Shown here in pieces: positions 20,109 through 39,486 of a stretch of DNA of 64,000 nucleotides. The stretch covers positions 558,001 through 622,000 of the forward strand of contig NZ_CP014206.1 in the NCBI RefSeq assembly GCF_001563225.1, written 5' to 3'. The notes beneath the pieces are model-generated. The model was not told where the DNA came from and made no database searches. It saw only the letters and a list, made by a program, of their open reading frames with translations. The position numbers were made by a program, and so were the translations under genes. Source of the stretch: Pseudodesulfovibrio indicus (lineage in GTDB: Bacteria > Desulfobacterota > Desulfovibrionia > Desulfovibrionales > Desulfovibrionaceae). The first letter of the stretch is position 1; the number at the start of each line of letters is the position of its first letter.

Positions 20109-20113
20109 GGCGC

Positions 20114-20240
20114 GCCTCCGGCGGCCAGGGGGGAAGGGGAAGAGGGGAACCCTTTGTAAAGGGCTTCCCCTCTTCCCCTTCCCCCCTGGACCCCCCAACC
20201 CCATCTCCCCTCCGAAACTTTTTATAGCCGCCTTCGGCGG
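20114..20240 (+). repeat. Intergenic stem-loop element, copy A (downstream of ftsX)
   Basis: Head GCCTCCGGCGGCC (20114-20126). The main stem pairs 20125-20155 with 20158-20189, 31 bp with one bulged base and a 2-base GT loop. A C-rich spacer leads to the tail GAAACTTTTTATA, and then a small hairpin CCGCC-TTC-GGCGG. It is the longest stem of the family. The T-run after a GC-rich stem suggests it terminates ftsEX transcription. Confidence 0.8.
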
Positions 20241-20357
20241 GGCAGTTTACAGCACTAATTCTTCTATGGAGCGTTTTTGGGGCAAAGCCCCAAACAGCGG
20301 CTCTCGCCCCCGCACGTCCATCCGGACAAGGCACCCCCACGCACCCAACTCCCGTGA

Positions 20358-20477
20358 GGCTTTGGAGAGTGGGTCAGCCGTGCATTTCTTCAAGGGGGAT
20401 TTGACCGCAGCGTAGCCTTCTACGTGAGGATCAAATCCCCCTTGAAGAAATGTGCGGATGGCCCGCTATCCAAAGCC
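20358..20477. repeat. 120-bp near-perfect palindromic element (REP/MITE-like)
   Basis: Two 58-base arms (20358-20415 and 20420-20477) match as inverted repeats at about 47 positions around a CCTT centre. The 22 bases 20383-20404 are perfectly complementary to 20431-20452. No ORF lies within. The upstream stretch 20241-20357 holds only a short hairpin (TTTGGGGC-AAA-GCCCCAAA near 20275-20293). Whether it is a terminator, a protein-binding site or a non-autonomous mobile element cannot be told from one copy. Confidence 0.75.
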
Positions 20478-20534
20478 GAAAAAAAGAGCCGCTCTTGCCG
20501 GGGGAAAGGATGACAATCCCGGCAAGAGCGGCTC
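20478..20534 (-). terminator. Terminator of the 53-residue small gene
   Basis: A perfect 17-bp stem (20486-20502 with 20518-20534) is followed on the minus strand by a run of seven T residues (20479-20485). It begins 41 bases after the stop codon of the small ORF at 20575-20736, which supports that ORF being transcribed. Confidence 0.8.
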
Positions 20535-20574
20535 ATACCCGCATGGTGACTGGGAACCTTGCGGCTCCCGAAAT

Positions 20575-20736
20575 CTAGAACCCGCGCGTGAACAGCGTCA
20601 GGGCGAAGGCGGCCACGGTCGAGGAGACCGTGCGGATGCGCGCGCGGTTGTTGCGGCGCGGACGGGCGGCATCGGTGCGGTTGGCGTCATTGCGCATATG
20701 CATCATGGCCAGTCGGGTATCGTTATCCATGCTCAT
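20575..20736 (-). CDS. Small hypothetical protein (53 residues)
   Basis: An ATG at 20736 is preceded by AAAGGAG at good spacing. The product has a Met/Asp/Asn-rich N-terminus, a very basic middle (RPRRNNRARIR) and a hydrophobic C-terminal stretch (TVSSTVAAFALTLF), suggesting a small membrane-associated protein. No family is recognised. A strong terminator directly downstream on the same strand supports it as a real gene. The 174 bases to the LysR gene on the other strand are AT-rich, with a TCTGAT/ATCAGA inverted repeat (20847-20852, 20869-20874), probably the shared divergent promoter region. Confidence 0.6.
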   Translation of the reverse strand: MSMDNDTRLAMMHMRNDANRTDAARPRRNNRARIRTVSSTVAAFALTLFTRGF

Positions 20737-20910
20737 CTTCCTGCTCCTTTCACTTGTCACCATCTGGGCGGATTCCCATGACTGCACAATTACGGATGGT
20801 GCCGTAATCAATCCAATTGTTTTGTTTGATGCAGTTGTTCAGTATTTCTGATGACAATTCCAATCTTAATCAGATATGATTATACCCAAGATCAGGGAGG
20901 GTGATCGCGC

Positions 20911-21792
20911 ATGGAACTCTACCAGTTGAAGACCTTTGTGGTGGTGGCCGAGGAAGGCCATCTGACCCGCGCCTCGGTACGGCTGCACACCAGCCAGCCC
21001 TCGGTTTCCGCGCACATCAAGGCGCTGGAGGAGGAGCTGGAGACCATGCTCTTCATCCGCACGCCCAAGGGGATGCGCCTGACCGAGGCGGGCGAGCGGC
21101 TCAAAACCAAGGCCGAAAACGTGCTCCGGGCCGCGCACGAGCTGCGGCTGGAGGCGCGGAACATGGGCGACGAGCTGGTGGGCGACCTGTCGCTCGGGCT
21201 GAACACCGATGCGGAATACCTGCGCATCGTGCCCCTGCTGACCGCCCTGGCCGCGGACCATCCCAAGATCACGCTCCAGATACAGCAGCGCGCCTCGACC
21301 TCGGTACAGGGCGCGATCCGCGCGGGCGAGCTGGACTGCGGGTTCATCTTCGGCGAGCCGCGCCACTCCGAGCTGAACGCCATCCACCTGGAAGACACCC
21401 GCTTTTTTGTCGCCGTGCCGGACATCTGGAAGGACAAGATGGAGCAGGGGCTGGTGGCCCTGGCCGACCTGCCCTGGATCATGGACCCGTCGGACAACCC
21501 GCTGCAAAAGCTCATCGAGCCGTTCTTCAAGTCACACGGGATCAAGCCCTCGAACCAGCTGGAGGTGGACGGCGACGAGGTCATCCGCGTGCTCGTGGCC
21601 GCCGGAAAAGGGGTCTCGTTCCTGCGCCGGAACGAGGTCCTGGCCGCCAACCGCATCGGCCAGCCCGTGCACGCCCTGTCCTTCGACGAACTGTCCATTC
21701 AGGCCAACTTCGTCTATCTCAAGCGGCACGACGAGGACCCGGTCATGCGGGCGGTCATCGAACACGTCAAGCGGTGCTGGGAACTGGAATAG
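20911..21792 (+). CDS. LysR-family transcriptional regulator (first of three paralogues)
   Basis: A 293-residue LysR regulator. The winged HTH occupies residues 1-60 (MELYQLKTFVVVAEEGHLTR, TSQPSVSAHIKALEEEL), a linker helix follows, and residues about 90-293 form the periplasmic-binding-protein-like effector domain. The inducer is unknown. GGGAGG lies nine bases before the ATG. It is closely related in its first 40 residues to the two LysR genes on the opposite strand just downstream, and it converges on them with three bases between stops. It is divergent from the 53-residue gene, its likeliest local target. Confidence 0.9.
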   Translation: MELYQLKTFVVVAEEGHLTRASVRLHTSQPSVSAHIKALEEELETMLFIRTPKGMRLTEAGERLKTKAENVLRAAHELRLEARNMGDELVGDLSLGLNTDAEYLRIVPLLTALAADHPKITLQIQQRASTSVQGAIRAGELDCGFIFGEPRHSELNAIHLEDTRFFVAVPDIWKDKMEQGLVALADLPWIMDPSDNPLQKLIEPFFKSHGIKPSNQLEVDGDEVIRVLVAAGKGVSFLRRNEVLAANRIGQPVHALSFDELSIQANFVYLKRHDEDPVMRAVIEHVKRCWELE

Positions 21793-21795
21793 GGA

Positions 21796-22689
21796 TCAGC
21801 AACCCTCTTCCGGCCACAGGGAGCGGACCACGTCCGCCAGGGCGCGGATGGACGGGTCGTTCTCCCGGCTCTTGGGATGGGCGAAGGTGATGTTCAGGGA
21901 GAGCAGCGGCCCGGTCTCGCAGATCACGGCGACCCCGTCCCGGACCATGGCGTCCGCATCGGTCTCCTTGAGCAGGGACACGCCCTTGCCCGCGGCCACC
22001 AGCTCGCGGATCACGTCCTCGGAGTCCGCCTCGATATAGTCGGTGATCTCGATGCCCGACCCCTCGAACACGCCGTCCAGGACCTTCATGAACGGGCACT
22101 CCCGGTCCGGCCGGACCCACGGCAGGGCCGCCAACTGGTCGAGCGCCATGCCCTGCACCCGCGCGGACCACGCCGCCGGGGCCACCACCCGCACCGGAAT
22201 CTCCTTCAGCGGAATGCCCAGGACCTCGGGATAGGGATTGTCGAAGAACGAGAACCCCGCGTCGATGCGCCGGTCGCGCACGTCGCGCAGGATGGACCCG
22301 GAGTTGCCCTGCTGGAACTTGAGCCGGAGCTTGGGATGGCTCGCGGCCATGGCCGCCGACAGCTCGGCCACGCGCAGGAACGCGGTGTCCGTATTCAGGG
22401 CGATGGTCAGCGATCCGGTCAGCTCCTCGCGGTAGGAGGCCGCCAGGTTGGCCATGTCCGAGGCCGCCAGCAGCACCGAGTCCGCCTTGAGCTTCAGCCC
22501 GGCGCCCGCCTCGGTCAGCTGCATGCCGCGCGGGGTGCGCACGAACAGGGGCAGCCCCAGCTCCTCCTCCAAAGCCTTGACGTGCCCGCTCACCGCGGGC
22601 TGGCTGGCGAAAATGCGCTCGGCGGCCTTGGTCAGGTTGCCCTCCTCGGCCACGGCCACGAACGTCCTGAGCTGATACAGTTCCATCAT
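21796..22689 (-). CDS. LysR-family transcriptional regulator (second paralogue)
   Basis: A 297-residue LysR regulator with N-terminal MMELYQLRTFVAVAEEGNLT, the recognition region SQPAVSGHVKALEEEL and an effector domain from about 90. Its start (ATG 22689, or 22686) overlaps the stop of the upstream LysR gene as ATGA, so the two are one transcriptional and translational unit. Shared sequence with the first and third paralogues points to local duplication. Target genes and inducer are unknown. Confidence 0.9.
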   Translation of the reverse strand: MMELYQLRTFVAVAEEGNLTKAAERIFASQPAVSGHVKALEEELGLPLFVRTPRGMQLTEAGAGLKLKADSVLLAASDMANLAASYREELTGSLTIALNTDTAFLRVAELSAAMAASHPKLRLKFQQGNSGSILRDVRDRRIDAGFSFFDNPYPEVLGIPLKEIPVRVVAPAAWSARVQGMALDQLAALPWVRPDRECPFMKVLDGVFEGSGIEITDYIEADSEDVIRELVAAGKGVSLLKETDADAMVRDGVAVICETGPLLSLNITFAHPKSRENDPSIRALADVVRSLWPEEGC

Positions 22690-23567
22690 CCCTCCCAGGT
22701 GCGCCGCACCAGCTCGATGAGCGCGCCCATGGACGGCAGGTCGCCGTCACCCTTGCGGTACACGAAATTCACTTCCACCGGATGCCGCCCCACCAGGACG
22801 CACTCCGCGGCCTGGCCTGACGCGAGCATGGCCGCCACCTCGTCCTCGCGGACCAGGGCCAACGCCTTGCCCTCCACCACCAGCGGCCGGATGACCTCCT
22901 CGGAGTCCGCGCCGATGGTCCGCGCCGGGACGATGCCGAACCGGTTGAACAGCTCCAGCTGCAACTCCCGGAACGGGCTGTGGCTCGCGGGCATGACCCA
23001 GGTGTAGGCCGAGAGCGCCGCCGCGTCGGCCTTGGCCAGCGCCTCGCCCCAGGCCGCCGCGCCCATGATCGAATAGGTCGGCTCGGCCAGCTTGATGGCC
23101 TCCAGGTCGCGGTACGGGTTGCCCGCGAACACGAAGCCCGCGTCCAGGTTCCTGGCCCGGATCTCGCTCAGGATCACCCCGGAGGGGGACTGGATGAGCT
23201 TCAGATTCAGCTTGGGGAACCGCTCGCTCAACAGGTCGATGAGGCTCGTGGCCTTCAGGAACGCGGGGTCCGTGCACAGCCCCAGCGCCACCTGGCCCGC
23301 CACCTCGCCGCCGAGCGTCACGGCCCGCGCCTTGAGGGTGTTGGCCGAGGCCAGGACCTCGATGGCGTCCTGGACCAGCTCGGCCCCCGCCGGGGTCAGC
23401 TCCACGCCGCGAGACGCGCGGTCGAACAGCCGGACCCCCAGCTCCTCCTCCAGCGCCTTGATGTGCGCCGAGACCGCGGGCTGGGTGGCGTGCACGCGCT
23501 TGCCCGCACGGGTGAAGTTCCCTTCCTCGGCCACGGCCACGAACGTCCTGAGCTGATAGAGTTCCAT
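22686..23567 (-). CDS. LysR-family transcriptional regulator (third paralogue)
   Basis: A 293-residue LysR regulator. The ATG at 23567 is chosen over an in-frame TTG at 23594, because it gives the same MELYQLRTFVAVAEEGN start as its two neighbours and has AAGGGGG just upstream. The HTH (TQPAVSAHIKALEEELGVRL) is near residues 28-47 and the effector domain runs from about 90 to 293. It is divergent from the tandem small membrane protein genes at 23712 and 23992, which are therefore candidate targets. It is coupled to the second LysR gene by a four-base overlap. Confidence 0.9.
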   Translation of the reverse strand: MELYQLRTFVAVAEEGNFTRAGKRVHATQPAVSAHIKALEEELGVRLFDRASRGVELTPAGAELVQDAIEVLASANTLKARAVTLGGEVAGQVALGLCTDPAFLKATSLIDLLSERFPKLNLKLIQSPSGVILSEIRARNLDAGFVFAGNPYRDLEAIKLAEPTYSIMGAAAWGEALAKADAAALSAYTWVMPASHSPFRELQLELFNRFGIVPARTIGADSEEVIRPLVVEGKALALVREDEVAAMLASGQAAECVLVGRHPVEVNFVYRKGDGDLPSMGALIELVRRTWEG

Positions 23568-23711
23568 GCCCCCTTCATACTCGCCCGCCACCAAAGGAGC
23601 AATCGCTATTCCTTATACCGGGCCTCGCCCCTTCCAATTGGACCGCGCGCCGCATTTCAGCGCATTTGTCCCGGTATCGATCAGAAAACCGCAGGACCAA
23701 AGGAGCCGATC

Positions 23712-23870
23712 ATGCACCCATGCAGCTTTTGGCGCTATCTCCTCAACCCCGAGGAAACCGGCGCTCCTTGGGGCCGGCCCGCCGCCCCCTGCCTGAGGCA
23801 AGCCGCCAAGGCCCTCTTCTGGCTGAGCATCTCCATCCTCCTCGGGCTCGGGCTCGGCCAGTTGGCCTGA
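23712..23870 (+). CDS. Small single-pass membrane protein (52 residues), copy 1 of a tandem pair
   Basis: A 52-residue ORF with AAGGAG six bases before the ATG. The N-terminal half has W-x-Y-L-x2-P-E-E-T-G-x-P-W (residues about 7-20), and residues about 34-50 form a single hydrophobic helix ending in GLGQLA. The same pattern recurs in the next gene (W-x-Y-L, PED, PW, then a helix ending GISQLV), so the two are paralogues despite low overall identity. No known family comes to mind. The conserved pattern and ribosome binding site together make it convincing as a gene. Confidence 0.7.
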   Translation: MHPCSFWRYLLNPEETGAPWGRPAAPCLRQAAKALFWLSISILLGLGLGQLA

Positions 23871-23991
23871 CGCGATCCATCAGATTTCCTTATGTCCGCC
23901 GTCACGCATCATTATTGGACCGGCCCGCGCCCTTTGCATAGGAGGGAGCCAGACATTGCCCGATCAACGGCTTCCACCCGAGGAGGACAGG

Positions 23992-24165
23992 ATGAAGAAG
24001 AACTACAACGGCTGGCTGTACCTGGTGTACCCCGAAGACTCCACCGGCATGCCCTGGGACGAATCCGTGCGCAGGACCGCCAACAGCCCGCTCGGCATCG
24101 TCAAGGTGATGCTCTGGGTTTCCGTGTCCATGGTCGTCAGCATGGGCATCAGCCAACTCGTCTAA
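23992..24165 (+). CDS. Small single-pass membrane protein (57 residues), copy 2 of a tandem pair
   Basis: A 57-residue ORF starting at ATG 23992, with GAGGAGG upstream. It shares with the gene at 23712 the N-terminal motif (WLYLVYPEDSTGMPW, residues 8-22), and it has one hydrophobic helix at about 37-54 ending in GISQLV. Both leaders also share the stretch ATTGGACCG. A strong terminator follows at 24234. The duplication suggests two subunits or two alternative forms of one small membrane factor; function is unknown. Confidence 0.72.
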   Translation: MKKNYNGWLYLVYPEDSTGMPWDESVRRTANSPLGIVKVMLWVSVSMVVSMGISQLV

Positions 24166-24233
24166 CTCTTTTCAGGCCGGCTCCCCCCGCTTAGAACGCC
24201 GGCCCATATATGACCTTTTGAGGTCCTCTCCGG

Positions 24234-24288
24234 CAACAGCCGGGTTCCCCAGGATTCGTCCCGGAACCCGGCTGTTGTTTATTTTTTG
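24234..24288 (+). terminator. Terminator after the small membrane protein pair
   Basis: A perfect 15-bp stem (24234-24248 with 24263-24277) is followed by TTTATTTTTT. Confidence 0.88.
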
Positions 24289-24298
24289 CGCGGGAGGC

Positions 24299-24414
24299 GC
24301 CTCCGGCGGCCGGGGGAAGGGGAGAGGGAAACCTTTTGGAAAAGGTTTCCCTCTCCCCTTCCCCCGGACCCCCATCCCCTCTCCCTTCCAAAACTTTTTG
24401 GGTCGCTTCGCGAG
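24299..24414 (+). repeat. Intergenic stem-loop element, copy B
   Basis: Head GCCTCCGGCGGC (24299-24310). A perfect 28-bp stem pairs 24310-24337 with 24340-24367 around a 2-base loop, then the C-rich spacer, TCCAAAACTTTTTGGG and the small hairpin TCGC-TTC-GCGA. It sits just downstream of an ordinary terminator, so termination alone does not explain it. The stretch 24415-24579 holds no gene I can support. Confidence 0.78.
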
Positions 24415-24579
24415 GTTGGGCTGACAGGAATAAACAACTCTCTTCACCCAAAGTCCCGACACGCCGCTCAGACTCTTTTCCCTGTCCGTCGCCCGGTCCG
24501 CCGTCCCCTCCTTCAACAACCCACACAATCCACCCCCAATCACCAGACAAACCACTCCCCTCCCGCTCCCGACGAACCC

Positions 24580-24749
24580 GAGCGAAGCGAGCGATAAAAA
24601 GCTTTGAAGGGGGAGTCCAGAGGGGGAAACTTTCTCGACAAATCCGCAGGACAGCGGATTTGGACCGCGCCCTCTTTGGGGCGCGACCCCGAAGGGGTGC
24701 GGGCCATGGACGGCCAGCATCAAAGTTTCCCCCTCTGGCCGCCGGAGGC
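24580..24749 (-). repeat. Intergenic stem-loop element, copy C, with an 88-base multi-hairpin insert (downstream of fabI)
   Basis: In minus-strand orientation it shows the head GCCTCCGGCGGCC (24749-24737) and a 17-bp outer stem (24722-24738 with 24617-24633). Between the arms lies an insert with further hairpins: 9 bp (24639-24647/24654-24662), 7 bp (24666-24672/24679-24685) and 5 bp (24686-24690/24694-24698). Then come the C-rich spacer and the tail CAAAGCTTTTTATCG. The whole would fold as a multi-branched structure directly after the fabI stop. Confidence 0.7.
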
Positions 24750-24761
24750 ATTCTTCTCCTC

Positions 24762-25526
24762 CTACACGCCCATGATGTTATAGCCGGAGTCCACGAAGAC
24801 GACGTCTCCGGTGGTGCCGGTGGAGAGGTCGGAGGCGAGGTAGAGGGCGCATTTGCCCACGTCGTCGATGGTGATGTTTCTGTGCAGGGGCGCTTTTTCC
24901 TCGATGCGGCCGAGTATGGTCTTGAACCCGGAGATGCCGGAGGCGGCCATGGTCTTGACCGGCCCGGCGGAGATGGCGTTGATGCGGATGCCGTTTTCGC
25001 CCAGGTCCACGGACAGGTAGCGCACGCACGCCTCCAGGGCGGCCTTGGCCACGCCCATGGCGTTGTAGTTGGCCACGACCTTGCCCGCCCCGTAGTAGCT
25101 GAGGGTCAGGACGGAGGAGCCGGGCGAGAAGAGCGGTTCGAAGGCGCGGCACAGGGCGACCAGGGAGTAGGAGGAAACGTCCAGGGCGACCTTGTACCCC
25201 TCGCGGCTGGTGTCGATGAACCGTCCCTTGAGGTCGTCGCGGTTGGCATAGGCGATGGAGTGGACGAGGATGTCCACGTTGCCCCATTTCTCGCGCACCA
25301 GGTCCGCGCCGGTCGCGATCTCCTGGTCCGAGGTGACGTCGCATTTGAACATGAACTCGCCGTTCAGCTCCTCGCTGATAGGGGCAAGGCGGCGCTCTAT
25401 GGGGTCGGCGGCGTAGCTGAACGCCAGCCGCGCGCCGTGTTCCTTGAACTGCCGGGCAATGCCGTAGGCGATGGACCGGTCGTTGACCACGCCGAAGATC
25501 AGGGCCTTCTTATCCTTGAGCAGCAT
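24762..25526 (-). CDS. fabI: Enoyl-[acyl-carrier-protein] reductase (NADH), FabI
   Basis: A 254-residue short-chain dehydrogenase/reductase of the FabI type, catalysing the last reduction of each fatty-acid elongation cycle in the cytoplasm. The atypical FabI nucleotide loop reads IFGVVNDRSIAYGIA (about 10-24). The catalytic Tyr-x6-Lys is in NYNAMGVAK, with another conserved Tyr in LSYYGA just before it. HSIAYA and SAGPVKT are further FabI-type stretches. Length is normal. It lies 69 bases after the glycosyltransferase gene and is followed by element C. Confidence 0.95.
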   Translation of the reverse strand: MLLKDKKALIFGVVNDRSIAYGIARQFKEHGARLAFSYAADPIERRLAPISEELNGEFMFKCDVTSDQEIATGADLVREKWGNVDILVHSIAYANRDDLKGRFIDTSREGYKVALDVSSYSLVALCRAFEPLFSPGSSVLTLSYYGAGKVVANYNAMGVAKAALEACVRYLSVDLGENGIRINAISAGPVKTMAASGISGFKTILGRIEEKAPLHRNITIDDVGKCALYLASDLSTGTTGDVVFVDSGYNIMGV

Positions 25527-25595
25527 GATGACTCCTTTGGTTGGAAGGAGTGTACCGCGCCCGGGGATTCAGTGCGACGAAAAATTTGTCCGGGC

Positions 25596-26783
25596 TCAGT
25601 CCCCGGCCTGCATGTCACCGGTCTGCATATTTAGGTAGACCTTTTCCAGGATGCGGGCGGAGTTCTCGGCCCCGTCCAGGTCCAGGTGCAGGGGCGCGGC
25701 CTTGCGGTCCAACCCTTCGCGCATGAGCGGCACCAGGCGTTCGGGACCGAGGTCCTCCTCGGTGATGACCTTGAGGCCGCCCTTTTCCTCGATCCGCCGG
25801 GCGCGCATGTTCTGCTCCCGGTTCTGGAGGAACGGGTACATGAGCCCGAAGGTGTTGGTGGCCAGCAGGTTCATGGTGGTGTTGTAGCCGCCCAGGGAAA
25901 CCGAGAGCGCGGCCAGGTCGAGGTAGGCCAGGAACCGCTTGGTGAACCGCTTCACGGTGATGTGCGGGTGGGCTTCGGCCTCGGCCTGCAGGCGGAGGAA
26001 CTCGTCCTCCTCGGCGTAGGGACCGGCAAAGACCATCATCCGGTGCGGGTGGGTCTCGTTGAGCACGGGGGAAGCGGCCATGACGCCGCGCAGCAGGTCG
26101 CGGCCGATGTGCCCGCCGCCCACGGACGCGACCACCAGCGGGGTGTCGCCGAGGTTCAGCTCGGCGGCCAGGGCAGCGGTTCCGGCGGGGTCGGGCTTGC
26201 GGGCCACGTACCCGGTGTAGTGGACCTCGGGCACGATGCCCTCCACGCCGGGGAAGGTCTCGTCAAGGCGCACCAGGTTGGGGTCCGAGTGGACCAGGAC
26301 GTGGTCGAAATTCGGGTTCAGGTAGCCGTGGACGCGCTCCACCTGGCGCTGCATGTCCTTCTTCTCCACCAGGATGTCGCGCACGGAGCAGACCGCCCGG
26401 CACTTGCCGTATTCGCCCTTGCGGACCTTCTTCAGGATGGGCAGCAGCTCGAACCGGAACTTCTTGCGCCCGAAGGGGAAGAGCTCGACCATGAAGATAT
26501 CGGGCTGGTATTCGGCCATGATTTCCTTGAACAATTTCAGGCGGCGGATCAGGACCTCGTCCACCTCGGCACCCTCTTCCAAGGGGATGAACCGGGTGAA
26601 CTTGGCGTCCATCATCAGGCCGGGCAGCTGGATGCGGGTCATGTTGGCTGGCGGCTCGAAATCCACCTCGGCCCCGCCGGTGACCAGGATGATCTCGTGG
26701 TCCTTGAGGGCCTTGACGATTTCCAGGGACCGGAACATGTGGCCCACGCCGAGCACGTGCTGGCAGTAGAAGACGATGCGCAT
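25596..26783 (-). CDS. MurG-like predicted glycosyltransferase
   Basis: A 395-residue protein with the two-domain GT-B pattern. N-terminal MRIVFYCQHVLGVGHMFRSL is the nucleotide-sugar transferase opening seen in COG4671-type proteins. The C-terminal half has VVASVGGGHIGRDLL and LSVSLGGYNTTMNLLA, resembling the donor-binding GGxN region of MurG. ATG 26783 overlaps the TAA of the upstream phosphatase by one base. The set of two glycosyltransferases and a phosphatase, tightly coupled, suggests synthesis of a surface glycoconjugate. Acceptor and sugar are unknown. Confidence 0.8.
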   Translation of the reverse strand: MRIVFYCQHVLGVGHMFRSLEIVKALKDHEIILVTGGAEVDFEPPANMTRIQLPGLMMDAKFTRFIPLEEGAEVDEVLIRRLKLFKEIMAEYQPDIFMVELFPFGRKKFRFELLPILKKVRKGEYGKCRAVCSVRDILVEKKDMQRQVERVHGYLNPNFDHVLVHSDPNLVRLDETFPGVEGIVPEVHYTGYVARKPDPAGTAALAAELNLGDTPLVVASVGGGHIGRDLLRGVMAASPVLNETHPHRMMVFAGPYAEEDEFLRLQAEAEAHPHITVKRFTKRFLAYLDLAALSVSLGGYNTTMNLLATNTFGLMYPFLQNREQNMRARRIEEKGGLKVITEEDLGPERLVPLMREGLDRKAAPLHLDLDGAENSARILEKVYLNMQTGDMQAGD

Positions 26784-27376
26784 TACAGCTCCATATTGAG
26801 TTCGCCCAGGGCGAGTTCGTTGTCCAGGCATTCGATGCGGTGCAGCCGGTACGGCTTGAAGGGGACGGGGTCCGAGGGCATGAACTCCAGGCCGGACAGG
26901 GCGTAGGTCAGACACTTGAGCACCCCGTTGTGGGTGACCACGAGCACGGACTCGCCGGGGTGCGCGACCGAGAAGTCGATGAGCGCGTCGCAGGCCCGCA
27001 TGAGCACCTCGTCGCGGCTCTCGCCCCCTTGGGGCCGGAAGCCGAAGCCCCGGTATTCCTCGCGCCCGACCTTCTTGCGCAGCTCCTTGAGCTCCGGCTT
27101 GGTCAGTCCGGTCCAGTCGCCCCAGTCCTGTTCGCCGAGGCGCGGGTCCTCGAAGACCGGCAACCCGAGCGTTTCGTTGATGATCGCCGCCGTCTCGCGG
27201 GCGCGGGACAGCGCGCTGGTCAGGATGCAGTCCAGGCCGCCCCCGGCCAGGGACCCGGCCCAGGCGCGGGCCATGCCGCGTCCCTCCTCGTTGAGCGGGA
27301 TATCGGTGTTGCCCTGGATGCGGCGGTCGCGGTTCCAGTCGGTGAGACCGTGCCGCATGCAGAAATAGGTGGTCAT
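26783..27376 (-). CDS. Histidine phosphatase family protein
   Basis: A 197-residue phosphoglycerate-mutase-like phosphatase. The catalytic motif CMRHGLTDWNRDRRIQG is at residues about 6-22, with the phosphohistidine in RHG. The second-site histidine lies in VVTHNGVLKCL near residue 150. Relatives include alpha-ribazole phosphatase (CobC) and GpmB-type phosphatases, and the sequence alone does not pick one. Its start overlaps the stop of the upstream glycosyltransferase as ATGA and its stop touches the next start, so all three genes are coupled. Confidence 0.85.
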   Translation of the reverse strand: MTTYFCMRHGLTDWNRDRRIQGNTDIPLNEEGRGMARAWAGSLAGGGLDCILTSALSRARETAAIINETLGLPVFEDPRLGEQDWGDWTGLTKPELKELRKKVGREEYRGFGFRPQGGESRDEVLMRACDALIDFSVAHPGESVLVVTHNGVLKCLTYALSGLEFMPSDPVPFKPYRLHRIECLDNELALGELNMEL

Positions 27377-28488
27377 GATCGGGTCCTCCGGGACACCAGT
27401 AGGCGCATGATTTCGTTCATCCTGTCGTAGTTCCTGCGGGCGTCGTGCTCCTCGGCCACATAGCCGGGGGCCGCCTTGGCCAGCCGGGCGCACAGACCCG
27501 GATCGCGCACCAGGGCGTCCACCCCCTGGGTGAACGCCTCCAGGTTCGCCCCGGTGATCAGGCCGGTGCGGTCGTGGGCCACCACCTGGGGCGCGCCCTC
27601 GTCGTCGGTGGCCACCACGGGCAACCCGCATTGCTGGGCCTCCAGATAGACCATGCCCACGCTCTCCTTCAAGCCCGGAAAGGCGAAGAAATCGGCGGCC
27701 GCGAAAAATTCCCCCAGTTTCTCCCGCCGGACCATCCCGGTGAAGACCACCCGGTCGCCGAGCAGCTCCCCGGCCTCCCCTTCCAGCTCCCGGCGCAGCG
27801 GGCCGTCCCCGGCCACGGCCAGGAACAGGTCGCGCCGCCGCGAGAGCAGGTCCGCGCAGGTCCGGAAGACCCAGCGCAGCCCCTCGGCCTTGACCCCGGC
27901 GCGCATCATTGCCGCCGTGGCCACGACCTTTGCGCCGCCCGTGTTCCAGGACTCGCGCAGCCGCCGGCCGCCCTCCTCGTCTCGGGTCAGCAATCCGGCG
28001 GGCAGGCCCGGGCGGATGTGCGTATAGCGATCGGACGGCAACAGCCAGGAGCAACCCCGGAGGTCGTTGAGCCGGTTGCAGAAGAGGTGGTCCGCCCGGA
28101 GCATGGCCCGCCTGTTGAGCCGGAATCCCGGCCAGGTGGCGAGCTTTTTGCCCCGTTTGGGGGCGTAGCTCGCCTGGACCAGGCAATAGGGAACGTCCAG
28201 CCGGGCCGCACCGTCGGGCCCGAACACGTCCGGGACCTTGTAATAGGAGCCGTAGGTCAGCCAGAGGTCCGCCCCGCGCGCGGCCTCGACCATGCGGTCC
28301 AGGGCGCGCCGCGCCGGGAACCAGCGCGACGGGTGCTTCCAGATTTCCTTGGCCGAGAAGTGCGGCAGCGGGATTACCTCGCTGCCCAGTTCGCGCAGGG
28401 CCGCCGCCAGGTCGCGGACAATGGTCACGTCACCGGAAACGGTGGTGTGATCAAGGGGCTTGAACGGGGTGCACAGGGCTATCTTCAC
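27373..28488 (-). CDS. GT4-family glycosyltransferase
   Basis: A 371-residue GT-B glycosyltransferase. The C-terminal Glycos_transf_1 domain carries FLAVAGDGPLRRELE, VVFTGMVRREKLGEFFAAADFFAFPGLKES split across the donor site, and the EX7E-like ESVGMVYLEAQQCGLPVVAT. The N-terminal acceptor domain begins MKIALCTPFKPLDHTTVSGD. There is no membrane segment, so it acts at the cytoplasmic face. It starts 21 bases after the TPR lipoprotein gene and overlaps the phosphatase gene by four bases. Confidence 0.88.
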   Translation of the reverse strand: MKIALCTPFKPLDHTTVSGDVTIVRDLAAALRELGSEVIPLPHFSAKEIWKHPSRWFPARRALDRMVEAARGADLWLTYGSYYKVPDVFGPDGAARLDVPYCLVQASYAPKRGKKLATWPGFRLNRRAMLRADHLFCNRLNDLRGCSWLLPSDRYTHIRPGLPAGLLTRDEEGGRRLRESWNTGGAKVVATAAMMRAGVKAEGLRWVFRTCADLLSRRRDLFLAVAGDGPLRRELEGEAGELLGDRVVFTGMVRREKLGEFFAAADFFAFPGLKESVGMVYLEAQQCGLPVVATDDEGAPQVVAHDRTGLITGANLEAFTQGVDALVRDPGLCARLAKAAPGYVAEEHDARRNYDRMNEIMRLLVSRRTRS

Positions 28489-28509
28489 GGCTCTCTCCCA
28501 GGAGCGGGG

Positions 28510-29337: not shown

Positions 29338-29344
29338 GGCGTCC

Positions 29345-31792
<2,448 letters not shown>

Positions 31793-31833
31793 TCCTTACT
31801 TGCCTCCTAGGATGCCGGGTCCGCGTGATGGGT

Positions 31834-31911
31834 GCCTCCGGCGGCTCAAGAACCCTTTGGAAAGGGTTCTTGAGAATCTCCTAAACTTTTTGTGTCGCCG
31901 CCGGTTTTCGG
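31834..31911 (+). repeat. Intergenic stem-loop element, copy D (in the gyrB-gyrA gap)
   Basis: Head GCCTCCGGCGGC (31834-31845). A perfect 13-bp stem pairs 31846-31858 with 31861-31873, then the tail CTAAACTTTTTGTGTCGCCG. It points opposite to gyrA transcription and lies in the gyrA leader. Confidence 0.78.
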
Positions 31912-31993
31912 TCTGTGAGCCCCGTCACGTCCTGGCGGCGTTGGTTCTTATTTATTTAAAAAACTTACGCTATTTTCGGTCTTCCCCGCCAAG

Positions 31994-32066
31994 GGCGGGC
32001 GATAAAAAGTTCTGGAAGGGGGTCCGGGGGAAACCTCTTTCAAGAGGTTTCCCCCGGTCTTCCTCC
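31994..32066 (-). repeat. Intergenic stem-loop element, copy E (downstream of gyrB)
   Basis: On the minus strand, just past the gyrB stop, the order is CGGGAGG, a perfect 16-bp stem (32042-32057 with 32024-32039), GGACCCCCTT and the tail AGAACTTTTTATCG. The GCCTCCGGCGGC head is replaced. It is oriented to terminate gyrB transcripts. Confidence 0.75.
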
Positions 32067-32072
32067 CGAAAC

Positions 32073-34469
<2,397 letters not shown>

Positions 34470-35639
34470 TTATGCGTTTTCCTCGGTATAGTAGGTCTCT
34501 TCCTGGATCATCATCGGCATGACGATGACCTGGTAGTCCTTGTCGTCGGGACCGGTCACCCCGCACGGGGCCTCGGTGCCGGTCAGGGTGAACTTCACGG
34601 TGGCGGAGTTGAAGTGGTTCAGGATCTCGATCAGGTTCCGGGTGGGGAAGGCGATGCGCGCCATGTCGCCGGAGAACCCGGCGTCAATGGACTCCCGGGC
34701 CGTGCCCGTCTCCTGGCCCTGGGCCGAGATCGTCACCTCGCCCTCGCCGAAGGTGAAGTAGGCGCAGCGGTTGGAGTCGGTGTTGAACAGGGCCACGCGG
34801 GAGAGCGCGTCCACCAGGTCGAGGCGGTTGACCTCAAGGGTGGAGACGTTGTCGTCGTTCAGCCGGGACAGGAAATTGTTGTAGTTGGGATACTGGTAGT
34901 AGGACAGCGGCAGGGTGAAGGTCTCGCGCTTGTCGCCGGTGCGGAAGAAGAGCCGCTTGTTGGAGATGGCCAGCTCGATCTCGTCGGCGGTGAGCCATTT
35001 CTTCAGTTCGGCGAGGTACTTCTTCTGGATCAGCACGCCCTCTTCGGGAAGCATGGAGTGGATGTCGTCGTTGACGAAGTTGAGCATGGCGAACTGGTGG
35101 CCGTTCAGGCCGCAGACCTCCACGGTGTTCACGCCGTCCTTCTCGCGGGGGACGAAGTAGATGCAGGCGATGGCCTCCATGGAGTCCTCGTCGGAGATGC
35201 AGAAGGAAATCTTCTCGATGATTTCATGCAGGAAGTCGCCGGACCAGTAGACCGTGTTGTCCTCCGGGAAGGTGGAGAACTTCTGGAACCACTCGGGGTC
35301 GTTCACCGGGAACTTGTACTTGCGGGCCTTCTGCTCCACCAGCACGTTCTGGTTGGCTTCGTCCGTGCGGATGGTCAGCTCGCCCTGGTCGGACCTGAGC
35401 TGCTTGACCAGGTCATAGAACGCCCTGCCCTGCACGCCTGCCAATCCCTCGCCCTCCAGGGCCGCCGGATAGGAGCCCATGAATTCCAGGTTGGAATCCG
35501 TGCTCATGACATTGAGGCTCCCGTTCTCGCACTGCAGCCAGATGGTCCGGAGGAAGGCGGCGCCCGTTTTGGCCGGGATGATGTTCGCCGACTTCTGGAG
35601 TCCTTCAATGATTTCATCTCTGTTCACTTTCAGAAACAT
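34470..35639 (-). CDS. dnaN: DNA polymerase III sliding clamp (beta subunit)
   Basis: A 389-residue beta clamp, the ring that tethers the replicative polymerase. The start MFLKVNRDEIIEGLQKSANI and the three-domain repeat pattern are typical. The C-terminal peptide-binding motif region is VMPMMIQEE. AAGGAGA lies eight bases before the ATG. The 147 bases to dnaA are AT-rich and presumably hold its promoter; I see no strong terminator there. The gene abuts gyrB, the usual order near a chromosomal origin. Confidence 0.95.
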   Translation of the reverse strand: MFLKVNRDEIIEGLQKSANIIPAKTGAAFLRTIWLQCENGSLNVMSTDSNLEFMGSYPAALEGEGLAGVQGRAFYDLVKQLRSDQGELTIRTDEANQNVLVEQKARKYKFPVNDPEWFQKFSTFPEDNTVYWSGDFLHEIIEKISFCISDEDSMEAIACIYFVPREKDGVNTVEVCGLNGHQFAMLNFVNDDIHSMLPEEGVLIQKKYLAELKKWLTADEIELAISNKRLFFRTGDKRETFTLPLSYYQYPNYNNFLSRLNDDNVSTLEVNRLDLVDALSRVALFNTDSNRCAYFTFGEGEVTISAQGQETGTARESIDAGFSGDMARIAFPTRNLIEILNHFNSATVKFTLTGTEAPCGVTGPDDKDYQVIVMPMMIQEETYYTEENA

Positions 35640-35786
35640 AAAAAATATCTCCTTGATTGAGATTTATTACCTCGGTTCCTTTGTTCCTTTCTAACCTAAG
35701 AACCTGGTTTTATTCATTTTTTAAAGCACACCCATTGTCACGAGTTGCGAACGGGATATGCCAAAAGTACCTGGATTCGACTTGGA

Positions 35787-37085
35787 TCACGACATGCGAC
35801 ATTTATTCTTCAACGTTTTCAACAGTTGTTTCAGTTCGAAGTCATCTTCTTGTAATTGATCGATTTTTTTGACCGAGTACAGGACCGTGGAGTGGTCCTT
35901 GCCGCCGAAGGCGCGACCCAGGGCCGGGTAGGACGTGTTCAGCATCTGGCGGCACAGGTACATGGCCACCTGGCGGGCGTGGGCGATGTGCTGGTGCCGC
36001 TTGGTGCCGGTCAGGTCCTTGACGTGGACGCTGAAATGCTCGGCCACCACGCTGAGGATCTTCTTGGGCGTCAGATCGTCGGTGGTCTTTTCCTCGGTGT
36101 TGGCCAGGATGTGTTCGAAATCCTTCTGGGAGAGGTCCTGTTTGACCAGCTCCTTGAAGGCGAACAGCTTGAGCAGGATGCCCTGGAGATAGCGGAAGTC
36201 GGTGAACCGCTGGGCCAGGGTCAGGATCTGCTCCTTGTTCAGGGAGAGCCGCTTGGCGCGCGCCTGGCGCTGGATGTACCCCACCCTGATCTCCAGGTCC
36301 GGCTCCTTCAGGGTGACGATCAATCCCCAGCCCAGGCGGGACTGGAGGTTGTCGTCCAGGAAGTCGTAGCTGGTGACCTTTTCCCGGCAGGCCAGGACCA
36401 TCTGCTTCTTGTTGTCGTAGAAGTGGTTGAAGATATTGACCAGTTCCTGCTGGAAATGGGGGTGTTCCTTGATCTTGTGGAAGTCGTCGATAAACAGGAA
36501 TTCATATTCGAACAGGTAGTTTCGCGCCTTGAACGGGTCGCCCTTGAAGCGGATGGAGTACAGGGAGTTGAGCTCATCCAGGGAGCCGATGAATATGGTC
36601 GAGTAGTCGTGCTTCTTGCTGATCTCGTTGGCCACGGACTTGAGCAGGTGGGTCTTGCCCGACCCGCCCGGCCCGCAGATGATGAACGGATTGAACAGGG
36701 AACCGGACTGCTTGGCCACCTCTTTGGCCGAGGCGATGGGAAAATAGTTCTTCTTGTTGATCAGAAAGGTCTCGAAGGTGAATTCCTGGCCAAAGGGAAA
36801 ATCGATGCGCTTGACCACGTCGGCCACCTGGACACCCTTGGAACGTTCCGGGGTCTCGGTGTCCTTGTAGCTCACCAGATAGCCGTTTCCGAGGAACATG
36901 TTCAGCTGGGCCTCGAACTTGTCCTGGATGTCCGACTCGAACCATTTGGCAAAAAACGCATGGGGAAAACCCACGGTCAGCCGCTTGTTGTCATCGGAAT
37001 AATCGAACGTCAGCGGGTCGAACCAGCGCTTGAGTTCCTCATCCGTGCAGGTCTGGAGCAGGTGTTGGCGAAATGATTCTTTCAC
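35787..37085 (-). CDS. dnaA: Chromosomal replication initiator DnaA (divergent form)
   Basis: A 432-residue DnaA. After an N-terminal domain I of about 80 residues and a short linker comes the AAA+ domain, with Walker A GPGGSGKTHLL (about 136-146) and Walker B EFLFIDDFHKI. The C-terminal DNA-binding domain IV has RQVAMYLCRQ and FGGKDHSTVLYSVKKI, the DnaA signature. Compared with textbook DnaA (GGVGLGKTH, IDDIQFL, FGGRDHTTV) several motifs are altered. The start codon is GTG with no strong ribosome binding site. Synteny with dnaN-gyrB-gyrA confirms the identification. Confidence 0.93.
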   Translation of the reverse strand: MKESFRQHLLQTCTDEELKRWFDPLTFDYSDDNKRLTVGFPHAFFAKWFESDIQDKFEAQLNMFLGNGYLVSYKDTETPERSKGVQVADVVKRIDFPFGQEFTFETFLINKKNYFPIASAKEVAKQSGSLFNPFIICGPGGSGKTHLLKSVANEISKKHDYSTIFIGSLDELNSLYSIRFKGDPFKARNYLFEYEFLFIDDFHKIKEHPHFQQELVNIFNHFYDNKKQMVLACREKVTSYDFLDDNLQSRLGWGLIVTLKEPDLEIRVGYIQRQARAKRLSLNKEQILTLAQRFTDFRYLQGILLKLFAFKELVKQDLSQKDFEHILANTEEKTTDDLTPKKILSVVAEHFSVHVKDLTGTKRHQHIAHARQVAMYLCRQMLNTSYPALGRAFGGKDHSTVLYSVKKIDQLQEDDFELKQLLKTLKNKCRMS

Positions 37086-37330
37086 GGTGTGATTTGGATA
37101 ATCCCAACTGATTGAATTTACAGTGTTTAAAAAATCAATTTCGCAGTCTAAAAAAACTCCCGAAATTCATGTGATTCTATACCCCAAAATGGCCCCAAAG
37201 CCAAGCATTTCCGCCAAATTTTCCGCCCTGCCGAGCGCGCAAGCGGGTTTTTCCCAGACGCGCGCCGCAGTTGTTGAAAACATGCCTGAAACGGAAAGTT
37301 TTCCTCTTTCGGGAGAGTTTTTCACAGCCG
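37086..37330. other. Candidate replication-origin/dnaA promoter region
   Basis: This non-coding stretch upstream of dnaA is notably AT-rich near dnaA (37100-37190), then mixed. A near-consensus DnaA box lies at 37093-37101 (minus strand TTATCCAAA, 8 of 9 bases of TTATCCACA), and TTTTTCACA at 37319-37327 matches at 7 of 9. No dense cluster of boxes is visible, so the origin may instead lie in another gap. From 37331 to 37450 I see only the leader of the next gene. Confidence 0.35.
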
Positions 37331-37450
37331 GTCCGGCACGAGGAAAACAAGCCTGTTTTCCTTCGCGCGAAATTGGATTACAAGTGGTGGACTTCGAGAA
37401 TGGAACAACACCCCCGCGGATCTGTCCGCCGGGGGCGGAGGCAGATAGGA

Positions 37451-38620
37451 ATGGCAGATTTCAAAGTGAACAAGACGGTAGGCGAGATCAACGAACGCAT
37501 CCGCAAGGGCAAGGCCGTGGTGGTCAACGCCGAGGAGATGATCGAGATCGTGCGCCGCGAAGGCAAGGTCCGGGCCGCCGAACAGGTCGACGTGGTCACC
37601 ACCGGCACCTTCTCGCCCATGTGCTCCTCGGGGCTGCTCTTCAACATCGGCCAGCAACCGCCGGTGATGAAGGTCTCCAAGCTCTGGCTGAACAACGTGC
37701 CCTGCTACTGCGGCATTGCCGCCGTGGACGCCTATATCGGCGCCACCGAGCCGTCCGAGGACGATCCCCTGAACAAGGTCCACCCCGGCCGCTTCGCGTA
37801 CGGCGGAGCGCATGTCATGGAGGACCTGCTGCGCGGCAAGGCCGTGCACCTGCGGGCCGAGGCCTACGGCACGGACTGCTACCCCCGGCGCGAGCTGGAC
37901 AAGGACATCACCCTGGCTGACCTGCCCAACGCCGTGATGCTCAATCCGCGCAACTGCTACCAGAACTACAACGCGGCCGTGAACCTGACCAGCCGCACCA
38001 TCTATACCTACATGGGACCGCTCAAGGCCAACTGCTCCAACGTCAACTTCGCCACCGCCGGGCAGCTCTCCCCCGCCTTCAACGATCCCTACTTCAAGAC
38101 CATCGGCATGGGGACGCGCATCTTCCTGGGCGGCGGCATCGGCTACGTCATCGGCGAAGGCACCCAGCACGTGCAGAAACCCAAGCGCAACGAGCGCGGC
38201 ATCCCGGAGAACGGGTCCGGCACGCTCATGCTCAAGGGCGATTTCAAGAAGATGGACGTCCGCTACGTGCGCGCCCAGTCCCTGGTGGGCTACGGCCCGT
38301 CCCTGGCGCTCGGCGTGGGCATCCCCATCCCCATCCTCAACGAGGAGATCGCCTGGTTCACCGGCGTCAGCGACGAGGACATCACCATGCCGGTCAAGGA
38401 CTACGGATACGACTACCCCAACGGCATCCCCCGCGAACTGGCCCGCGTGACCTTCGCGGAGCTCAAGTCCGGCGAGGTCACCGTCAACGGCAAGAAAACC
38501 GCCACCGTCCCGGTTACGTCCTACACCATGTCCCTGGAAGTGGCCGACAAACTCAAGGAATGGATACTCAAGGGAGATTTCCTCCTGACCGAAAAACAGG
38601 ACGACATCCCGAGTTATTAA
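37451..38620 (+). CDS. DUF39 homocysteine biosynthesis protein
   Basis: A 389-residue protein of the DUF39/HcyBio family, shown in Methanosarcina and Desulfovibrio to be needed for making homocysteine from aspartate semialdehyde and sulfide by a route lacking the classical acyl-homoserine steps. Candidate catalytic cysteines are C85 and C87 in NNVPCYCGIAAVDAYIG. Glycine-rich GTRIFLGGGIGYVIG is another conserved stretch. ATG 37451 gives the family-typical start (MADFKVNKTVGEINERI), and an in-frame upstream extension looks spurious. It is divergent from dnaA and followed by element F. The C-terminal ferredoxin/NIL partner of some homologues is not adjacent. Confidence 0.9.
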   Translation: MADFKVNKTVGEINERIRKGKAVVVNAEEMIEIVRREGKVRAAEQVDVVTTGTFSPMCSSGLLFNIGQQPPVMKVSKLWLNNVPCYCGIAAVDAYIGATEPSEDDPLNKVHPGRFAYGGAHVMEDLLRGKAVHLRAEAYGTDCYPRRELDKDITLADLPNAVMLNPRNCYQNYNAAVNLTSRTIYTYMGPLKANCSNVNFATAGQLSPAFNDPYFKTIGMGTRIFLGGGIGYVIGEGTQHVQKPKRNERGIPENGSGTLMLKGDFKKMDVRYVRAQSLVGYGPSLALGVGIPIPILNEEIAWFTGVSDEDITMPVKDYGYDYPNGIPRELARVTFAELKSGEVTVNGKKTATVPVTSYTMSLEVADKLKEWILKGDFLLTEKQDDIPSY

Positions 38621-38627
38621 GAAGAAT

Positions 38628-38711
38628 GCCTCCGGCGGCCAGGGGGGAAACTTTTGAAAAGTTTCCCCCCTGGACCCCCTTTCCAAACTTTTTGTGTGCC
38701 TTCGGCAAGTG
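38628..38711 (+). repeat. Intergenic stem-loop element, copy F (downstream of the DUF39 gene)
   Basis: Head GCCTCCGGCGGCC (38628-38640). A perfect 17-bp stem pairs 38639-38655 with 38657-38673, then ACCCCCTTTCC, the tail AAACTTTTTGTGTG and the mini-hairpin GCC-TTC-GGC. It starts seven bases after the stop codon. The following 38712-38825 shows no gene. Confidence 0.8.
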
Positions 38712-38825
38712 CGTGCGGGGCCTGTGTTTCAAGGTCTGTTTCTGTTAGGGGACAGGCCTTTTTTCATGCCCATTGTGCGCACTCTTTGAACGAATTGTCC
38801 GAATTGCCAAACCATCCTCAACCCA

Positions 38826-38924
38826 CCCCGCGAAGCGGCTCCAAAAAGTTTGGGAAAAGGTGGGGATGGGGGGCTGGGGGCATCAAAAAAGGGTCCTGTC
38901 AGCGTCAGCTGACAGGACCCTTTT
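38826..38924 (-). repeat. Stem-loop element, copy G, with a replaced stem (downstream of the 2-oxoacid oxidoreductase operon)
   Basis: On the minus strand a 13-bp stem (38908-38920 with 38891-38903), flanked by AAAA and TTTTTT, is followed by a C-rich spacer, then CCCAAACTTTTTGGAG and the mini-hairpin CCGC-TTC-GCGG. The spacer and tail match the family while head and stem differ. The stem alone is a bidirectional terminator. Confidence 0.65.
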
Positions 38925-38943
38925 ATTGGTGCCTATCCCGCGA

Positions 38944-39486
38944 CTAGGCGACGTGTTTGGCGCCGGCTTCGATGGCCTTGGTATTGGCCGGGATGAGCTT
39001 GTGGTAGTGCGGGGAGATGACGTTTTCGAGGGACCCGATGACGGCATCCAGGGAGATGATCCCGGAGGCCTGGACGAAGGCGCCGATGGCGACCATGTTG
39101 GCCATGCGGGTATTGCCCAGCTCGTCGGCGATCTCGTTGCAGGGAACCCCGTAGCACTTGAGGCGGTCCGTATCGGCCAGCTCCATGTCGATGAGCGAGG
39201 AGTTGATGATGTGGATGCCGCCGTCCACCACGCGCGGCTGGAACTTGTCGAGCGACGGGCGGTTCATGGCGATGAGGGATTTGGGCCGGTGGATGATGGG
39301 CGAGCCGATGTCTTCTTCGGAGAGCACCACCGTGCAGTTGGCGGTGCCGCCGCGCATCTCCGGGCCGTAGACCGGGATGTAGGTGACGTTCAGGCCGTCC
39401 TTCATGCCCGCGTAGGCCAGCAGGTTGCCGATGAGCATGACGCCCTGGCCGCCGAATCCGGCGATGATGGAGTCGATGTAGCGCAT
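38944..39486 (-). CDS. 2-oxoacid:ferredoxin oxidoreductase, gamma subunit
   Basis: A 180-residue gamma subunit (Kor/VorC type), which contributes part of the CoA/2-oxoacid site. The N-terminal [18 protein letters not shown] and [12 protein letters not shown] are the family signatures. Together with the alpha, beta and ferredoxin genes upstream it forms an oxygen-sensitive enzyme that converts a 2-oxoacid plus CoA to acyl-CoA, CO2 and reduced ferredoxin, or the reverse. ATG 39486 overlaps the stop of the beta gene by one base. It is the last gene of the operon. Confidence 0.93.

Follow-up and report, generated by a model that had tools for sequence, protein, structure and literature searches.

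A dispersed intergenic repeat of Pseudodesulfovibrio indicus whose third block matches its own hairpin arm and may fold into an intrastrand triplex

The repeat in the window and its parts

The stretch of the Pseudodesulfovibrio indicus genome analyzed here (contig NZ_CP014206.1, positions 558,001 to 622,000 of the forward strand; 64,000 nucleotides (nt), hereafter the window) carries, beside an ftsX-like gene, a fabI-like gene, gyrA and gyrB, seven sites (A to G) of a dispersed intergenic element. The core of this element extends from a 12-nt head, GCCTCCGGCGGC, to AAAC and a run of five T (T5), and on balance it appears to be built for a three-strand fold, in which the bottom DNA strand would form a triplex that may serve as a barrier at gene edges. 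The parts follow each other in the order head, hairpin, third strand (the "spacer" of an earlier note on this DNA), AAAC, T5 and one of several exchangeable mini-hairpins; in some copies, an extra module lies between the head and the hairpin. The following parts were located (window positions):

20114..20125, plus strand: head of copy A, GCCTCCGGCGGC, 5 nt past the stop of the ftsX-like gene (19233-20108)
20125..20189, plus strand: hairpin of copy A, two 31-nt arms and a 3-nt loop, first base shared with the head
20190..20218, plus strand: third strand of copy A, parallel to the 5' arm
20219..20223, plus strand: T5 of copy A
20227..20240, plus strand: mini-hairpin of copy A with a TTC loop, an exchangeable module
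24299..24310, plus strand: head of copy B, behind an ordinary terminator
24310..24367, plus strand: hairpin of copy B, two 27-nt arms
24368..24394, plus strand: third strand of copy B
24395..24399, plus strand: T5 of copy B
24738..24749, minus strand: head of copy C, 12 nt past the stop of the fabI-like gene (24762-25526, minus)
24617..24738, minus strand: hairpin of copy C, arms of 17 nt separated by a loop insert of 88 nt (24634-24721)
24601..24616, minus strand: third strand of copy C, ending AAAGC; the arms of insert-free relatives end CTTTC
24596..24600, minus strand: T5 of copy C
31834..31845, plus strand: head of copy D, pointing away from the gyrA start (gyrA 29345-31792, minus)
31845..31874, plus strand: hairpin of copy D, 13-nt arms
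31875..31886, plus strand: third strand of copy D
31887..31891, plus strand: T5 of copy D
32024..32057, minus strand: hairpin of copy E, headless, past the gyrB stop (gyrB 32073-34469, minus)
32009..32023, minus strand: third strand of copy E, AGAAC over an arm ending CTCTT
32004..32008, minus strand: T5 of copy E
38628..38639, plus strand: head of copy F, 7 nt past the stop of the gene at 37451-38620
38639..38673, plus strand: hairpin of copy F, 16-nt arms
38674..38688, plus strand: third strand of copy F
38689..38693, plus strand: T5 of copy F
38698..38706, plus strand: mini-hairpin of copy F, GCCTTCGGC
38843..38873, minus strand: remnant of copy G, with third strand and T5 but neither 5' arm nor loop
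38885..38924, minus strand: ordinary terminator, earlier taken as the stem of copy G; by eye, not part of the element

The start and stop positions of genes are our own calls, made with a codon model retrained on gyrA, gyrB, dnaN and dnaA, and not a curated annotation. The families of these training genes were confirmed afterwards, the DnaA model score being just under its cut-off.

The positions that the earlier note had given for the seven copies were essentially correct, as was its description of stems that differ and are nevertheless self-complementary. The order that it ascribed to all seven holds in part: the head is exact in copies A, B, C, D and F, copy E (32066-31994, minus) has a hairpin, third strand and tail and lacks the head, and copy G (38924-38826, minus) consists of a terminator followed by the head remnant GATGCC, the last bases of the 3' arm, the third strand and the tail. 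Copy G is what a deletion left of an element, next to an ordinary terminator. The tail reads AAACTTTTT in copies A, B, D, F and G, AAAGCTTTTT in copy C and AGAACTTTTT in copy E. The mini-hairpin with a TTC loop did not stand as a common feature, with departures in D and E. Since the mini-hairpin is not universal and can differ between copies that share a stem, it is an exchangeable module.

The claim of a dispersed family with fixed ends was borne out. The exact head occurs 141 times in the P. indicus genome (75 and 66 by strand, 3.97 Mb), and the backward control gave four matches; the repeat family is real and well beyond chance. Reading of 56 genome stretches and the window gave 106 exact heads, and a hairpin was recognized by the script's rule in 85 of them. 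The scan of the window with Rfam gave no match above any family's gathering cut-off; 87 sub-threshold matches in 20000-39000 were nearly all to microRNA models, as is typical of long hairpins. No description of the element was found in the literature searched, which was mostly open-access, with subscription papers largely outside its coverage. The first 11 bases of the head appear in four papers, of which none has a title on repeats.

Several copies carry further modules. The insert in the loop of copy C (24634-24721, minus) consists of 88 nt of small hairpins, so that a repeat is nested in a repeat; two other loci (L038 and L053, about positions 1,283,322 and 2,531,415 of the genome) have similar inserts, one of them shorter, in loops of this type. 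At five loci (L018, L029, L034, L050 and L054), a module GGGGCGCTGCCCC-GGA-CCCCGC (or G3/C3) lies between the head and the main hairpin and, by eye, obeys the parallel third-strand rule described below. Another dispersed repeat, of the type GGAGCGTTTTTGGGGC-AAA-GCCCCAAACAGCGG, was found at 20267-20300 and at two other loci (L010 and L027), in some of the same intergenic regions.

Agreement of the third strand with its own arm

Read in the direction of the 5' arm, the third strand is the complement of that arm with fixed departures. Three consecutive blocks are present, the third being mirrored to one arm and parallel-complementary to the other, and the departures are C over apical C and A over part of the A. 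In copy B, for example, the arm GGGGGAAGGGGAGAGGGAAACCTTTT is matched with the third strand CCCCCATCCCCTCTCCCTTCCAAAAC. Arms or loops reading CTTTCGAG go with AAAGC, and those reading CTCTTGA with AGAAC.

This match is specific to each copy. Among 79 distinct elements of the P. indicus genome, the element's own third strand scored 13.65 as the parallel complement, compared with 9.36 for the third strands of other copies (permutation z 18.8). The controls gave z 8.4 for mirror identity and z 0.9 for parallel identity. For 58 elements of other genomes, the parallel complement gave z 13.9, mirror identity 5.1 and parallel identity 1.2. Antiparallel pairing of the spacer with an arm, as in strand exchange, was rejected, its signal being weaker than the parallel one (z 8.4 versus 18.8 in the P. 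indicus genome and 7.9 versus 13.9 in the others). When third strands were swapped between arms of near-equal length with at least three differences, the own third strand was better in 325 of 392 swaps and worse in 52 within the P. indicus genome, and better in 222 of 266 and worse in 32 in other genomes. In the genome of a sister species (G080), for arms that merely differed, it was better in 143 of 204 and worse in 57.

Run lengths agreed as well. The A-run of the tail was as long as the T-run of the arm in nearly all elements of other genomes (52 of 55, r 0.96) and in most of those of P. indicus (36 of 47, r 0.61), and T5 did not vary with the arm T-run (r -0.06 and -0.09). With one substituted base counted, the C-runs of arm and third strand were equal in 51 of 54 and 40 of 51 elements, respectively. 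The length of the third strand follows that of the stem, and short members without long G-runs obey the same rule. In the earlier note, pairing rather than sequence was said to be kept. Pairing does hold, but the description was incomplete, as the third strand is kept too; likewise, the C-rich spacer and AAAC are present, but it had been overlooked that the spacer is a third strand matched in order to its own arm.

These results bear on two other explanations. The elements might be ordinary terminators or hairpins of 3' untranslated regions with an unstructured C-rich tail, such as a Rho loading stretch. Strong hairpins soon past stop codons and a C-rich, G-poor tail would agree with this, but an effect of composition would not predict a copy-specific order. 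A simple terminator scan listed no main stem of copies A, B, D, E and F, although its power was low (17 sites versus 15.4 in shuffles) and it also missed the ordinary terminator beside copy G. Nor was the Rho-independent layout of a GC-rich stem followed directly by a T-run found, T5 lying beyond the third strand, whose A-run starts 5-26 nt past clean stems. This explanation is considered very unlikely. The second is that the elements are G-quadruplexes of the bottom strand or i-motifs of the top strand. Long members do carry many bottom-strand G-runs; however, neither structure depends on runs being mirrored in order, and the rule also holds for short members that have hardly any G-run, which makes this explanation highly implausible.

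The base code was derived from 76 distinct elements of the P. indicus genome. In brief and for the most part, G and apical C of the arm are covered by C, A by T or A, and T by A. G was faced by C in 702 of 736 cases, and A by T in 288, by A in 99 and by C in 16, with 68 skips. Past the switch, where the arm turns to pyrimidines, C was opposite C 137 times and opposite G 8 times; T was opposite A 192 times, opposite C 12 times and never opposite T. Elements of other genomes mostly agreed before the switch (G faced by C 172 and by A 18; A by T 87 and by A 29) and gave similar counts past it (C faced by C 70 and by G 8; T by A 144, by C 4 and by T 2). The C-over-C and A-over-A departures are conservative because the alignments rewarded the plain complement. 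Skips cluster just before the purine strand switch in P. indicus and are more scattered in other genomes.

Written for the bottom strand, the code covers G-C pairs with G, and A-T pairs with A or T, nearly always T past the switch. Parallel G.GC and T.AT triplets are allowed, and these rules are invoked for the part past the switch. The triplets of the purine motif are G.GC, A.AT and T.AT, and purine-motif triplexes do not form in RNA, according to Holder et al. (2015, PMC4666352). Judged by sequence, the code seems to fit purine-motif triplets followed by parallel G.GC and T.AT, and it would suit a triplex of top-strand RNA less well.

An RNA-level triplex terminator is the alternative on which this difference bears. 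In that case, the C/U-rich third strand of the gene-sense transcript would zip into the hairpin leaving RNA polymerase and pull on U5, the triplex replacing the usual arrangement of a stem next to a U-tract. The position of T5 directly past the third strand, where it does not track the run lengths of the latter, would be well explained. However, the rules of the RNA pyrimidine motif give neither C over C-G past the switch (137 C, 8 G) nor A over A-T before it (99). The placement of the copies is also relevant to this alternative.

Placement, orientation and distribution

Of the 106 heads read, 101 lie between genes and 5 inside called genes. Seventy-seven are sense to the gene behind them, and 47 of these are found at -1 to 18 nt past the called stop, which counts in favor of a terminator acting through an RNA triplex. 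Within the window, copies A, C, E, F and G follow a stop codon, copy B sits (by eye) behind an ordinary terminator, and copy D on the plus strand faces the start of gyrA on the minus strand, all as the earlier note had stated. The remaining 24 heads are antisense, facing the start of an opposite-strand gene. In codirectional regions, 22 sense and 23 antisense heads were counted, so that about half of the heads there are antisense. An ordinary terminator was found before the element in none of 37 near copies and after it in 15, and thus 22 of the 37 had none on either side; but among 103 control regions lacking an exact sense head, 67 likewise had none and 36 had one. Among 22 far copies, an ordinary terminator lay between the stop and the head in 15 and past the tail in 8.

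Considering that 15 of the 22 far copies are already behind an ordinary terminator and that antisense heads are about as frequent as sense ones in codirectional regions, the view that termination alone is insufficient to explain the family was upheld, and the RNA triplex terminator is regarded as quite improbable. The suggestion of a structured RNA 3' end is not favored either, since the third-strand code suits bottom-strand DNA better than RNA and orientation is not tied to transcription.

Six of the 24 antisense heads (L009, L015, L025, L029, L035 and L036) are situated 4-7 nt from a called start codon. The reverse complement of the head, GCCGCCGGAGGC, contains GGAGG and could act as a Shine-Dalgarno sequence in those copies.

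The elements are also arranged with respect to each other and to gene edges. Of 71 elements chosen by stricter rules, 69 had the head as the end nearer the gene edge, and the 13 regions with two elements were all tail to tail. Among the heads read, 26 of 27 neighbor pairs within 1200 bp were tail to tail. With classes corrected by eye, long and non-long members were partners in 20 of the 26 facing pairs, where 13.3 would be expected (p 0.011); without that correction, the script gave 13 of 17, with 8.6 expected (p 0.044). For the 100 listed of 103 heads followed by CR, with dnaA taken as the origin, 55 lay within 750 kb of dnaA (p 0.0004), and no replication strand bias was seen (45 co-directional versus 55 opposed).

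Exact heads were present in all 36 genomes of the genus examined, that of P. indicus included, at 4 to 157 copies per genome, with 0 to 9 matches in backward controls. The full pattern was found in 11 of 79 genomes of the family, including P. indicus and three others of the genus. In the comparison with G080, 16 orthologous intergenic regions had an exact head in either genome and 10 had it in both, the G080 stretches having been chosen around its own heads, which favors sharing. Of the 29 genus genomes in which the gyrB-gyrA locus was present (P. indicus among them), 8 had a junction of 14-15 nt and no element. Past gyrB, a clear unit like copy E was seen in P. indicus and at locus L214, and L213 had a similar hairpin without the tail (by eye).

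The gyrA leaders of seven relatives (L205, L206, L212, L214, L225, L227 and L229) keep a sequence like AAGTTTnGGAGATTC, with a changed stem and a third-strand rule that fades (by eye). This sequence may be a separate conserved leader RNA. The gyrA loci of five of them (L205, L212, L214, L225 and L227) gave no Rfam match at E 1.

In other taxa, 80 loci listed from a named genome collection were subjected to an automatic test for head, hairpin, third strand and tail, which supports presence in a taxon and not absence elsewhere. Among these loci, 35 passed: 24 of 31 in Candidatus Aminicenantes (three genomes), 2 of 2 in Ruminococcus sp. YE71, 1 of 1 in each of two Clostridia bins, and others in Desulfovibrionaceae and one further bin. 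The loci listed that failed were 7 of 7 in Desulfoluna, 3 of 3 in an Acidobacteriota bin, 10 of 12 in Pseudodesulfovibrio (six of them with the pairing run into an inserted module) and single loci in Acutalibacter, Oscillospiraceae, Anaeromassilibacillus, another Clostridia bin, Bradyrhizobium, Saprospiraceae, Phycisphaerae, Rokubacteria, Spirochaetaceae, Leisingera, Nitrospirae and others. The three Aminicenantes genomes contained 332, 108 and 597 heads and Ruminococcus YE71 contained 6, with 0 to 2 in controls. Thus, as read from sequence, the three-strand architecture appears to recur in Aminicenantes and some Clostridia. The genomic context in other taxa was mixed (few loci). The result that would have refuted the earlier note, no copies beyond the seven or ends that are not conserved outside them, was not obtained: exact heads occur in all genus genomes examined and in other phyla.

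Desulfoluna spongiiphila had 1252 exact heads (control 6), and none of the seven Desulfoluna loci passed. At the Desulfoluna loci that were read (L103, L117, L130 and L160), the head was followed by another palindrome and no third strand, and a second repeat with a TCGTTCCTC loop was noticed near Desulfoluna heads.

Such a distribution raises the possibility that the family is only a selfish repeat of the REP or MITE kind, in which a few master copies passed on the correspondence between arm and third strand, and this correspondence has no triplex function. A copy number of 4 to 157 within the genus, the patchy presence of the full pattern in the family, the occurrence in distant phyla and the element-free gyrB-gyrA junctions in 8 of 29 genomes would all be expected of such a repeat. 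On the other hand, no copying step known to us would produce a parallel complement, the own third strand beat swapped ones over 58 distinct arms and in other genomes, and 10 of 16 sites were common to the sister species. In addition, the P. indicus genome gave no match to the Y1 transposase PF01797 (RAYT/IS200 type), the only mobilizer family sought. A purely selfish origin of the match is therefore judged unlikely. A spreading element, as proposed in the earlier note, is plausible in itself, but no mobilizer was found in that search, and 10 of the 16 intergenic sites compared had exact heads in both P. indicus and the sister species.

The proposed fold and its relation to known elements

The preferred explanation is that an intrastrand triplex forms from the bottom (gene-antisense) DNA strand. 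The third strand would lie along its own 5' arm, and, as a purine-type third strand in the major groove, it would read the purines of one arm and, after the switch, those of the other, stopping at the loop. When this strand is exposed, the fold could act as a brake on polymerases or as a boundary at gene edges. The element would have spread and been kept much like the PIT/boxC or REP elements of Escherichia coli. The role of a structural barrier is suggested more weakly than the triplex, because it is drawn from position only.

Several observations weigh against this explanation. The copies are related, so the swap and z counts are not independent events. At orthologous sites of the sister species, the own third strand was better in 3, equal in 1 and worse in 3 of 7 element pairs, one arm having been misplaced by the script; this outcome points in neither direction. 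Some relatives of copy D at the gyrase locus depart from the third-strand rule (by eye). The code was formulated after the P. indicus genome had been seen, with other genomes then used as a test, and in those genomes C outside the apical pyrimidine run faced G 12 times and C twice. Nearly all loci of other genomes were fetched by a pattern requiring AAACTTTTT, which biases their tails and T5; in the P. indicus set, fetched by head alone, the T-run of the tail was 5 in 35 of 47. The fixed T5 is unexplained by a bottom-strand triplex. Furthermore, in Holder et al. (2015, PMC4666352), no guanine protection was observed in vivo for TM_ECO of E. coli, and earlier work on PIT cited there is described as having found a polymerase block in vitro and no in vivo effect or promoter or terminator activity.

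Intrastrand triplex motifs (PIT, boxC, TM_ECO) are a kind of element already known, and PMC4666352, whose ITxF database comprises 988,588 motifs and could include short members of the present family, allows several comparisons. Like the PIT/boxC/TM_ECO elements of E. coli and relatives, the present ones are dispersed and intergenic and have three blocks allowing an intrastrand triplex. According to that paper, E. coli MG1655 has five close inverted pairs of TM_ECO, each joining two types, and TM_ECO is nearer the origin in K-12 MG1655, although not in other strains or bacteria; here too, there are close inverted pairs (26/27), pairing of long with non-long members (20/26) and 55 of 100 listed heads within 750 kb of dnaA. 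For TM_ECO, an intergenic position without strand bias is characteristic; here, 101 of 106 heads are intergenic, and 77 are sense and 24 antisense to the gene behind the head. As described in the same paper, TM_ECO is one near-fixed 37-nt class II sequence (Y-R-R; Y, pyrimidine; R, purine), whereas the present element is R-Y-Y on top and R-R-Y below. Unlike TM_ECO, it also has many stems of up to 31 nt, purines that switch strand, and a fixed head, tail and T5. The TM_ECO/boxC consensus, CCCTCNCCC N3-6 GGGNGAGGG N3 GGGNGAGGG, had no exact match on either strand of the P. indicus genome.

REP elements and their mosaics (BIME), which are associated with RAYT, are numerous short palindromic intergenic units with exchangeable modules. 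The present family resembles them in these respects and, unlike REP/RAYT, is not accompanied by a Y1 transposase in its genome; REP elements, to our knowledge, have no third strand. In REP/RAYT systems, a GTAG or CGTC tag stands beside the palindrome (PMC3733652). The uptake-signal-pair terminators of the TransTermHP paper (PMC1852404) are similar in that a repeated sequence is concentrated at gene ends. They differ in being drawn from at least 1,000 signals, compared with 141 exact heads here, where there is no layout of a stem next to a T-run and antisense copies are common.

Four features seem to be new: the copies vary widely and yet the three strands stay in register, the purines switch strand, head and T5 are fixed, and the family extends over several phyla. 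A broader proposal, which we put forward tentatively and with some doubt, is that this is a natural multi-phylum DNA element forming one long intramolecular triplex, of at most about 28 triplets, with a one-base skip where it crosses purine strands, and kept by three-strand covariation. The in vivo relevance of intrastrand triplexes has been a lasting question because the best-studied family, PIT/TM_ECO of E. coli, is nearly invariant and offers little covariation. A family that is varied and yet matched over three strands opens this question to comparative genomics and compensatory mutants. If the proposal is true, the element would provide the first comparative evidence, in the literature searched, that selection maintains intrastrand triplexes in living cells, as punctuation at gene edges.

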